Shown one piece after another: positions 30,732 through 34,553 of a DNA stretch of 50,063 nucleotides. Within the stretch, counting starts at the first letter, position 1, and each line of letters starts with the position of its first letter. Source of the stretch: Bdellovibrio sp. (GTDB taxonomy: Bacteria; Myxococcota; SpSt-1050); the NCBI GenBank assembly GCA_020725805.1, contig DYEF01000097.1:1-50063 (forward strand), read 5' to 3'. Under the pieces are notes generated by a model. That model was not told the origin of the DNA. It did no database searches and was given only the letters and a program-made list of their open reading frames with translations. The position numbers and the translations under genes are program-made.

Positions 30732-30766
30732 TTTGACTACAAATCACTTTTATCCTATAAGTCAAA
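30732..30766 (+). promoter_or_regulatory. amidohydrolase promoter inside an inverted repeat
   Basis: TTGACT (30733-30738), 17 bp, TATAAG (30756-30761). A perfect 7-bp inverted repeat, TTTGACT (30732-30738) and AGTCAAA (30760-30766), spans the -35 and the region just past the -10. The ATG at 30774 is 12 nt beyond the -10 and has no Shine-Dalgarno sequence, so the leader should be about 5 nt. A repressor bound to the repeat would block RNA polymerase; that is inference. Confidence 0.65.
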
Positions 30767-32091: not shown

Positions 32092-33237
32092 ATGTTAGGA
32101 CAGAGATTCGGAAAGTATATACTCATCAGAAAACTCGCCACAGGCGGAATGGCGGATATCTATCTGGCCAGACAGGAAGGTATGGAGGGTTTTCAGAAGG
32201 ACATCGTAATCAAGAAGATAAGACCCGAAATCAGCCAGAAACAGGAATTTGTCCAGATGTTTCTCAATGAGGCGAAGCTTGCCGCGATGCTCACTCACCC
32301 GAATATCTGCCAGATCTTTGACCTCGGAAAGATTTCGGACTCCTATTTCATTGCTATGGAATATATCGCCGGAAGGGATATGAACCGCATTATCAATGCC
32401 TCGGCAAAGCGCGGAATCCCCTTCCCGATGGAGTATGCACTGAAGATCGCCTCCAATGTATGTGAGGGTCTGTACTATGCCCACTCCAAGGTTGACTACA
32501 ACGGAAACCCGCTGAATATCGTTCACAGGGATGTCACACCCGAGAATATTATGGTATCATGGGACGGTGCGGTAAAGATTCTCGATTTCGGAATCGCAAA
32601 GGCTACGAATCTGGTCTCCACAGACAGGGAGGGCGAGGTCAAGGGGAAGCTGAGCTATATCTCTCCCGAACAGCTTCAGGGTAAGGAGGCCGACCAGAGG
32701 TCCGATATATTCTCGCTCGGCGTCGTCCTTTATGAGTGGATTACCGGATATAAACTCTTCAGGGGCGAGACAGATGAGGCCGTTATCAAATCCATTACGG
32801 AGGGGAAGATCTACCCGCCCAGTTTCTTCAAGCCCGAACTGCCGAAGCAGGTAGAGAAGATACTTATGTCTGCCCTCGAGAAAGACCCCGAGAAGAGATA
32901 CAGGAATGCGTGGGATATGCAGTTTGAAATAGACTCGTTTCTGAGTCAGCACGAATTTACTCCGTCGAATGTACACCTCTCGAATTTCATAAAACAGCTC
33001 TTCAAGGATGAGATCGAGAAGGAGAGGAAGATTACAGGCAAGAAGATTATCGCAGTGCCGCCGCCGCTTCCGGGGAGCAAGAGTCCGCATAAGGTGGTTC
33101 AGACAGCCGGAAGGAATGTCCAGTGTAATCTGCCAGAAGAGATATTCGTCTCTCTTTCCCAGATAGCCCAGAAGAACGAGATGACTCTTTCCGCCCTCAT
33201 CGAGGAGATAGTAAAATTTTATCTTAAATACAAATAA
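32092..33237 (+). CDS. soluble Ser/Thr kinase with ribbon-helix-helix C-terminus
   Basis: A 381-residue protein. The kinase domain (about 7-285) has GGMADIY, catalytic K41, HRD at 145-147, DFG at 165-167 and SPEQ, so it should be active. No membrane helix is present, unlike most bacterial kinases of this class. After a Pro-rich linker, the last 40 residues (about 342-381) match the ribbon-helix-helix fold: a short strand (NVQCNLP), helix A (EEIFVSLSQIAQKNE) and helix B (TLSALIEEIVKFYL), as in CopG/Arc-type DNA-binding dimers. This would tie a kinase to DNA or to dimerisation. It is in an operon with the amidohydrolase upstream and upp downstream. Confidence 0.88.
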   Translation: MLGQRFGKYILIRKLATGGMADIYLARQEGMEGFQKDIVIKKIRPEISQKQEFVQMFLNEAKLAAMLTHPNICQIFDLGKISDSYFIAMEYIAGRDMNRIINASAKRGIPFPMEYALKIASNVCEGLYYAHSKVDYNGNPLNIVHRDVTPENIMVSWDGAVKILDFGIAKATNLVSTDREGEVKGKLSYISPEQLQGKEADQRSDIFSLGVVLYEWITGYKLFRGETDEAVIKSITEGKIYPPSFFKPELPKQVEKILMSALEKDPEKRYRNAWDMQFEIDSFLSQHEFTPSNVHLSNFIKQLFKDEIEKERKITGKKIIAVPPPLPGSKSPHKVVQTAGRNVQCNLPEEIFVSLSQIAQKNEMTLSALIEEIVKFYLKYK

Positions 33238-33250
33238 GAGGAGTCACAAA

Positions 33251-34030
33251 ATGAATGAAATCGAACATCGTTACAACGAGAATGTTCATCTGATAGATTC
33301 CCCGATTCTTTTCGAACTTGTGGCACGTTTTTCGAGACCCGAGACGGTACAGCCTGAGGCAAACCGCATAATAAGGTATGCCTATAACGAACTGCTCAGA
33401 TATATAGTGGACGTGGAGTTCCCCAGAACGAGGATTGAATATTCCACACGTATGAAGAAATACACCCCCCGTGGTATAGTGAGGGGTATAGGGATAAAGA
33501 AAGACACCAAGACGGTTATCGTAAGTATTCTCAGGGCCGGTTCGATACCGTCACAGCTCTTCTTCGATATCCTGTGCTGGCTTATCAACCCGGAGTATAT
33601 CAGACAGGACTTTATTTCTTCTGCCAGAATAGTAAACAGAAAAGGCAAAGTAACGGGTGCATCCATCAATACAGTCAAGGTCGGCGGTGACCTGAGTGAT
33701 GCCTATGTTCTTATTCCGGACCCGATGGGAGCGACGGCATCGACTCTTGTCAAGGTGATCGATGAATATATGAAGAATACCCGGAAACCTCCTAAGAAGA
33801 TTATCACCGCTCACCTGATTATTACACCAGAGTTTATCAGAAATCTGCATAGCAGGTATCCTGATGTTATAATATATTCACTGAGACTCGACAGGGGTCT
33901 GTCCTCAGAAGAGGTGCTGAAATCAATCCCCGGCACATTCAAGGAGAAGGAGAGGGGACTTAACGATAATCAGTATATTGTCCCCGGCGCAGGCGGGGTA
34001 GGCGAAATAATAAATAATTCATTTGTCTGA
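33251..34030 (+). CDS. upp: uracil phosphoribosyltransferase-like
   Basis: Converts uracil and PRPP to UMP in pyrimidine salvage. The family signature elements are present: VSILRAGSIPS near the pyrophosphate loop, the PRPP-binding segment DPMGATAST (usually DPMLATGGS), and the C-terminal uracil-binding YIVPGAGGVGEI (usually YIxPGLGDAGDR). At 259 residues it is about 50 longer than typical bacterial Upp, and the motifs deviate, so substrate preference may differ. GAGGAG lies before the ATG. It is followed 10 bp later by hpt, a coherent salvage pair. Confidence 0.82.
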   Translation: MNEIEHRYNENVHLIDSPILFELVARFSRPETVQPEANRIIRYAYNELLRYIVDVEFPRTRIEYSTRMKKYTPRGIVRGIGIKKDTKTVIVSILRAGSIPSQLFFDILCWLINPEYIRQDFISSARIVNRKGKVTGASINTVKVGGDLSDAYVLIPDPMGATASTLVKVIDEYMKNTRKPPKKIITAHLIITPEFIRNLHSRYPDVIIYSLRLDRGLSSEEVLKSIPGTFKEKERGLNDNQYIVPGAGGVGEIINNSFV

Positions 34031-34040
34031 CAGGTGATTT

Positions 34041-34553
34041 ATGCAAAAATTCAAGGTATTGATAAGCGAGAAGGATATCAAAAAGAGGGTAAAGGCCCTT
34101 GCATCCAGAATAAACAGGGATTTTAAGGGGGAGCATCTGTATATTATCGGGATTCTCAACGGGTGCTATATGTTTCTGTCGGATCTGACCAAGGAACTTA
34201 AAATGCCCTGTACCGTCGACTTTATGCGTGTCTCGAGTTACGGGAATGCAACCGAGACGAGCGGTATCGTAAGGATAATTATGGATGTCTCCGAATCACT
34301 CTCCGGCAAGAATGTGCTGATCGTCGAGGATATTATCGATACCGGACTTACTATGGATTATCTCATAAGGACCATCAAGCAGAAGAAGCCCAAATCAGTA
34401 AAGATCTGTACACTGCTGCACAAGAAGGTAAAGACGAGGATAAACGTCGACATCGACTACTGCGGTTTCGAGGTGCCGGATAAGTTCGTGGTAGGTTATG
34501 GTCTGGATTACAATAATATGTACCGGAATCTGAGATACATCGGGTACAAATAA
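34041..34553 (+). CDS. hpt: hypoxanthine phosphoribosyltransferase
   Basis: Salvages hypoxanthine (and often guanine) to the nucleotide using PRPP. The 170-residue length is typical. The PRPP loop VLIVEDIIDTGLTMDYL, the N-terminal IIGILNGCYMF and the C-terminal CGFEVPDKFVVGYGLDY are diagnostic for the family. Cytoplasmic. It is encoded 10 bp after upp and 13 bp before a membrane protein gene. Confidence 0.95.
   Translation: MQKFKVLISEKDIKKRVKALASRINRDFKGEHLYIIGILNGCYMFLSDLTKELKMPCTVDFMRVSSYGNATETSGIVRIIMDVSESLSGKNVLIVEDIIDTGLTMDYLIRTIKQKKPKSVKICTLLHKKVKTRINVDIDYCGFEVPDKFVVGYGLDYNNMYRNLRYIGYK

Follow-up and report, generated by a model that had tools for sequence, protein, structure and literature searches.

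The window, by which we mean the whole 50,063-nucleotide stretch of DNA that was analysed, carries at 32092-33237 on the forward strand an open reading frame of 381 amino acids (ATG at 32092, stop codon at 33235-33237) without any frame problem, the product of which combines a Hanks-type kinase domain with a C-terminal ribbon-helix-helix (RHH) domain. The gene lies in an operon with the following features.

30733 to 30761, + strand: most likely the sigma-70-type promoter of the operon, TTGACT (30733-30738), 17-nt spacer and TATAAG (30756-30761); hexamers and spacer kept in the sister genome L047
30774 to 32090, + strand: amidohydrolase gene, the immediate upstream neighbour of the kinase gene in the operon, with 5'-deoxyadenosine deaminase as its closest model (505 bits, under the model cut-off of 522)
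32092 to 33039, + strand: Hanks-type kinase domain with a conserved C-terminal helical extension (residues 1-316), from Pfam, invariant catalytic residues and AF2 helices to residue 315
33040 to 33114, + strand: flexible linker (residues 317-341), AF2 pLDDT below 50 at 317-340
33115 to 33234, + strand: RHH domain (residues 342-381), from Pfam on orthologues, hhalign, and AF2 with Foldseek
33251 to 34030, + strand: uracil phosphoribosyltransferase-like gene, downstream in the operon, below family cut-offs
34041 to 34553, + strand: hypoxanthine phosphoribosyltransferase gene, downstream in the operon (TIGR01203, 220.7 bits, above cut-off)

Operon context and promoter

The gene order of this operon was kept in L047 and L127, relatives from the same genus and order, and several other families also had amidohydrolase and kinase side by side. 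Many Myxococcaceae and their relatives instead have the kinase gene after gcvP-type genes and before truA (gcvTHP-kinase-truA); similarly, glycine cleavage genes were found upstream of it in L049, L052, L072 and L107, often with truA after it, with gcv, truA, clpB and metF being named by sequence inspection and not by family search. When neighbourhoods were compared across families, no single conserved context held for the RHH-tailed kinase. Since its neighbours differ between families, no regulon is implied, and the operon points loosely to nucleoside or one-carbon metabolism without fixing the function. With regard to MasK (MXAN_1929), a Hanks-type kinase of Myxococcus xanthus (PMC3546991), identity with the kinase described here was unsupported by the neighbours: masK sits in masABK beside mglBA and recR, whereas the recurrent neighbours of the RHH-tailed kinase are truA, gcvTHP or the amidohydrolase. 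This sets the two apart by gene context.

An earlier note on this DNA had proposed the inverted repeat at 30732-30766 as an operator for the RHH domain. This repeat, TTTGACT/AGTCAAA, has arms of 7 bp at 30732-30738 and 30760-30766, and it is no longer than expected by chance, given that an equally long repeat turned up in 343 of 1000 dinucleotide-shuffled versions of the 200-bp region. In L047, TTGACT-17-TATAAA was kept in an otherwise diverged upstream region, while AATTCAA replaced the right arm of the repeat. With a repeat at chance level, overlap with the sigma-70 promoter and the loss of the right arm in L047, the proposed operator was rejected, and 30732-30766 is, as judged from sequence, most likely the operon promoter instead. 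The promoter was recognised by its sequence together with its conservation in L047, a simple scanner having passed over it because of its rule of T as the last -10 base. A gap of 12 nt separates TATAAG from the start codon of the operon's first gene; if TTGACT-17-TATAAG is the promoter in use, the mRNA would begin a mere 5 nt or so upstream of the amidohydrolase start codon (30774) and be almost leaderless.

The kinase, its linker and its tail

The 381-residue product matched Pfam Pkinase over residues 11-270 (6.4e-43), and K41, E60, H145-R146-D147, N152, D165-F166-G167, E193 and D205 are all there in the protein and did not vary among 32 orthologues, so that the catalytic motif set of Hanks kinases (beta-3 Lys, alpha-C Glu, HRD, Asn and DFG) is complete. 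In line with the earlier reading of this gene as coding for an apparently active soluble enzyme, the protein is apparently a soluble Hanks Ser/Thr kinase that would be catalytically competent by its motifs. Whole-protein identity to orthologues outside the genus was 54-62%. The PknB_PASTA model matched the kinase part at 2e-80, below the full-length cut-off of that model, and the full-length AF2 model comprised a kinase fold, a linker and tail helices only, with no sensor module. The protein thus belongs to the same kinase class as PknB/Pkn-type Hanks kinases but lacks PASTA, transmembrane and sensor modules and has an RHH domain instead, which bears out the earlier suggestion that an RHH domain occupies the end at which a sensor or transmembrane module would be expected.

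Residue 149 (32536-32538) is Thr, within the catalytic loop HRDVTPEN, a position at which Lys is the usual residue of Ser/Thr kinases; a loop of the form HRD[VIL][TS]PEN was common to nearly all orthologues. The beginning of the window carries a second Hanks kinase gene, at 724-1506 (open frame of 781 aa), and G000 gave 16 Pkinase matches in all.

The kinase part is joined to the tail by a disordered linker, the length of which ranged from about 30 to 180 aa across orthologues. Most orthologues (L021, L022, L058, L061 and L072, among others) had, within the linker, a short motif of acidic and hydrophobic residues, such as EEVLELEEVGGRALTD or EEIISSIEPIS, which is missing in the lineage of the window and is possibly a docking motif.

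The identity of the tail was left unsettled by the Pfam/NCBIfam search with the single full sequence; taken alone, the tail of the 381-aa protein scored 17.5 bits against RHH_1, under the Pfam cut-off of 20.5. The profile comparison therefore failed for the single sequence and succeeded for the family. When orthologue tails were scanned one by one, RHH_1 matched 19 of 32 (best, 1.7e-6) and was the commonest family among them, followed by other RHH families, whereas none of the 32 shuffled tails gave an RHH match. Furthermore, a blind RHH_1 search of 39 relatives returned the G029 orthologue (frame of 404 aa) at 35.8 bits, above the cut-off, and hhalign aligned the tail alignment with 24 bona fide RHH proteins at 97.1% probability (E 5.5e-11), compared with 0.1% for the shuffled control.

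The structural predictions pointed in the same direction. The AF2 tail model (pLDDT 90.3) consisted of an extended segment followed by two helices, giving an RHH layout of strand 342-347, helix A at about 349-361 and helix B at about 366-380; these predictions are of the monomer, and the paired strand of an RHH forms only in the dimer. The top 50 Foldseek matches of this model were almost only RHH proteins, with ORF56 as the best (TM 0.84, rmsd 0.8) and CopG, Arc, CopASO, CdbA, ParG, PutA and MatP among the others. Individually, none of the Foldseek E-values was better than 0.06, a weakness that reflects how short the domain is (45 residues), so the evidence lies in the consistency of the list. 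LysM and other weak matches of the tail were dropped, given that the structural matches are RHH proteins.

A chance helical hairpin would account for a single sequence under the Pfam cut-off and for weak Foldseek E-values with so short a domain; it is, however, scarcely credible in view of the failure of the shuffled controls, the above-cut-off score of the G029 orthologue, the hhalign probability and a structural list that is consistently RHH. Because orthologue tails, shuffled controls, hhalign and AF2/Foldseek agree, the family evidence confirms, at the level of sequence and predicted structure, that the C-terminal tail of the kinase is an RHH domain. The tail of about 40 residues put forward earlier thus stands, with its bounds refined to about 342-381.

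Distribution and evolution of the family

Full-length orthologues were found throughout Myxococcota. A profile of the tail matched 132 of 195 Myxococcota genomes (about two thirds), normally with one strong match per genome, which nearly always closed an open frame of kinase length; among the weakest matches, a few were short separate frames. This genome count covers Myxococcota, and one pattern-based scan served as a sample beyond the phylum. By these sequence searches, the RHH-tailed kinase is a single-copy family kept across most of Myxococcota. In a kinase-domain tree built with a quick method, all RHH-tailed kinases fell into one clade (SH-aLRT 98), and the sole member labelled otherwise, L083, had an RHH-like tail on inspection. 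The simplest reading of the tree is one origin of the kinase-RHH fusion, followed by retention.

Between the window and a sister species, synonymous sites were saturated, while the kinase retained 97% amino-acid identity and the RHH domain 73%, with a dN of 0.17 for the RHH domain versus 0.024 for the kinase domain, i.e., about seven times faster. Given that the RHH core was kept despite saturated synonymous sites, the sequence comparison indicates that the RHH domain is under selection, yet evolves faster than the kinase domain.

Dimerisation, DNA binding and the role of the RHH domain

RHH domains are intertwined dimers that read bases through the outward-facing residues of their paired strand and touch phosphates with the loop and the start of helix B (PMC7156744). 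The inward strand positions 343 (L/V/I), 345 (L/V/I/C/F) and 347 (L/V/M/I) of the kinase tail were hydrophobic in all 32 rows of the family alignment, with Leu at 355 in 31 of 32 and Ala at 359 in every row. By analogy with the RHH superfamily, dimerisation of the kinase is likely. With regard to DNA contacts, the outward residue 344 was T/Q/S/R/N in 30 of 32 orthologues and the loop residue 361 was R/K in 28 of 32, choices as expected for a DNA binder. Position 342 was unconserved: most rows had a hydrophobic residue, an acidic one or Gly there, often A/V/M/E. Position 346, also unconserved, was P/A/D/E in 15 of 32 rows compared to 1 of 24 reference RHHs, and basic in 3 of 32 compared to 9 of 24. 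The mean net charge of the RHH core was 0.06 in the family and 1.2 in the reference RHHs; for the comparisons at 342 and 346 and of charge, p-values are indicative only, since the rows are relatives of one another and Pfam served to select the reference RHHs. Because 342 and 346 vary across the family, DNA binding is not readable from the fold, and we consider the chances of DNA binding by this domain to be roughly even. In this organism, the outward trio is N342-Q344-N346, all polar and compatible with DNA reading.

Among known systems, the closest concept is the PutA protein of E. coli, an enzyme whose RHH domain represses its own regulon, with trifunctional PutA moonlighting as an autogenous repressor (PMC5293562). 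PutA likewise joins an enzyme and an RHH domain in one chain and its RHH domain was among the structural matches; however, it is a flavoenzyme with an N-terminal RHH domain and proven DNA binding, which is putative here. CopG, ORF56 and Arc share the strand-helix-helix fold and gave the best structural matches (TM about 0.8), but they are stand-alone small repressors, whereas here the RHH domain forms the C-terminus of a kinase and two of its three outward strand positions do not resemble those of DNA binders when the family is taken as a whole. CdbA and CdbB of Myxococcus xanthus, from the same phylum, are RHH proteins of 67 and 86 aa that bind c-di-GMP and have no kinase domain, CdbA being a nucleoid protein (PMC7156744) and one of the structural matches.

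Taking these data together, we consider it rather probable that the RHH domain serves as a dimer-maker that favours trans-autophosphorylation and, in at least some lineages, as a DNA tether. On its flexible linker, the C-terminal RHH domain would make the kinase an obligate, constitutive dimer, and such RHH-driven dimerisation would favour autophosphorylation in trans. In some lineages at least, possibly including this one, the dimer may also dock on DNA, which would bring kinase activity to a chromosomal site or onto a DNA-bound substrate. We infer DNA binding, its targets and the direction of any coupling with uncertainty. The points against this explanation are the residues at 342 and 346, which are not DNA-like, the dN of the RHH domain, about seven times that of the kinase domain, and the varied gene neighbours. 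More tentatively, and somewhat short of an even chance, the protein may be a phylum-core single-copy Hanks kinase tethered to DNA, in which the RHH dimer sets the kinase on chromosomal sites, where it would phosphorylate transcription or nucleoid proteins or release itself on autophosphorylation.

A purely dimerising RHH domain that has lost DNA binding, with a role like that of other small dimerising kinase tails, would explain a strictly kept hydrophobic core, outward strand positions that are often hydrophobic, acidic or Pro, and a core net charge near zero. We regard this as possible, if on the doubtful side, in that the central strand position 344 and the loop R/K361 are polar or basic in most members and all three outward residues are polar in this organism. 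A one-component regulator, with a sequence-specific RHH domain and autophosphorylation toggling its binding to operators, the promoter of its own operon included, would be in keeping with the DNA-binding regulators that RHH domains mostly are, with N342-Q344-N346 as a plausible base-reading trio and with the precedent of PutA (PMC5293562). This is, however, unlikely: the proposed operator coincides with the promoter, with a repeat that is no better than chance and not conserved, residues 342 and 346 of the strand vary freely from one family member to the next, and the operon differs across the phylum, which makes a conserved autoregulatory target improbable. Finally, the RHH domain could bind c-di-GMP as CdbA does and be a sensor that regulates the kinase; the ligand site of CdbA overlaps the DNA-contact region and includes R27, a residue mutated together with R30 (PMC7156744) and equivalent by numbering to the conserved R/K361. 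Among the equivalents of CdbA K8, S10, R27 and R30, only that of R27 was kept (R/K in 28 of 32), an equivalence by numbering and not by superposition; with those of K8, S10 and R30 unconserved, we give such a sensor very little weight.

In a search of the open-access literature, with subscription papers mostly outside it, no paper describing a Hanks kinase that carries an RHH domain was found. A known fold sits on a known enzyme class, and it is their combination and its phylum-wide retention that appear to be undescribed. Myxobacteria have very large kinomes, in which most kinases are without an assigned role, and a kinase with a fused RHH domain that most of the phylum has retained as a single copy clearly qualifies as a candidate for a core function, one that is testable in Myxococcus laboratory strains. 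If DNA binding holds true, this would be a case of a Hanks kinase working at the chromosome with no response regulator in between; if the kinase is indeed tethered to DNA, kinase signalling would reach the chromosome through one protein, by a route that most Myxococcota have conserved.
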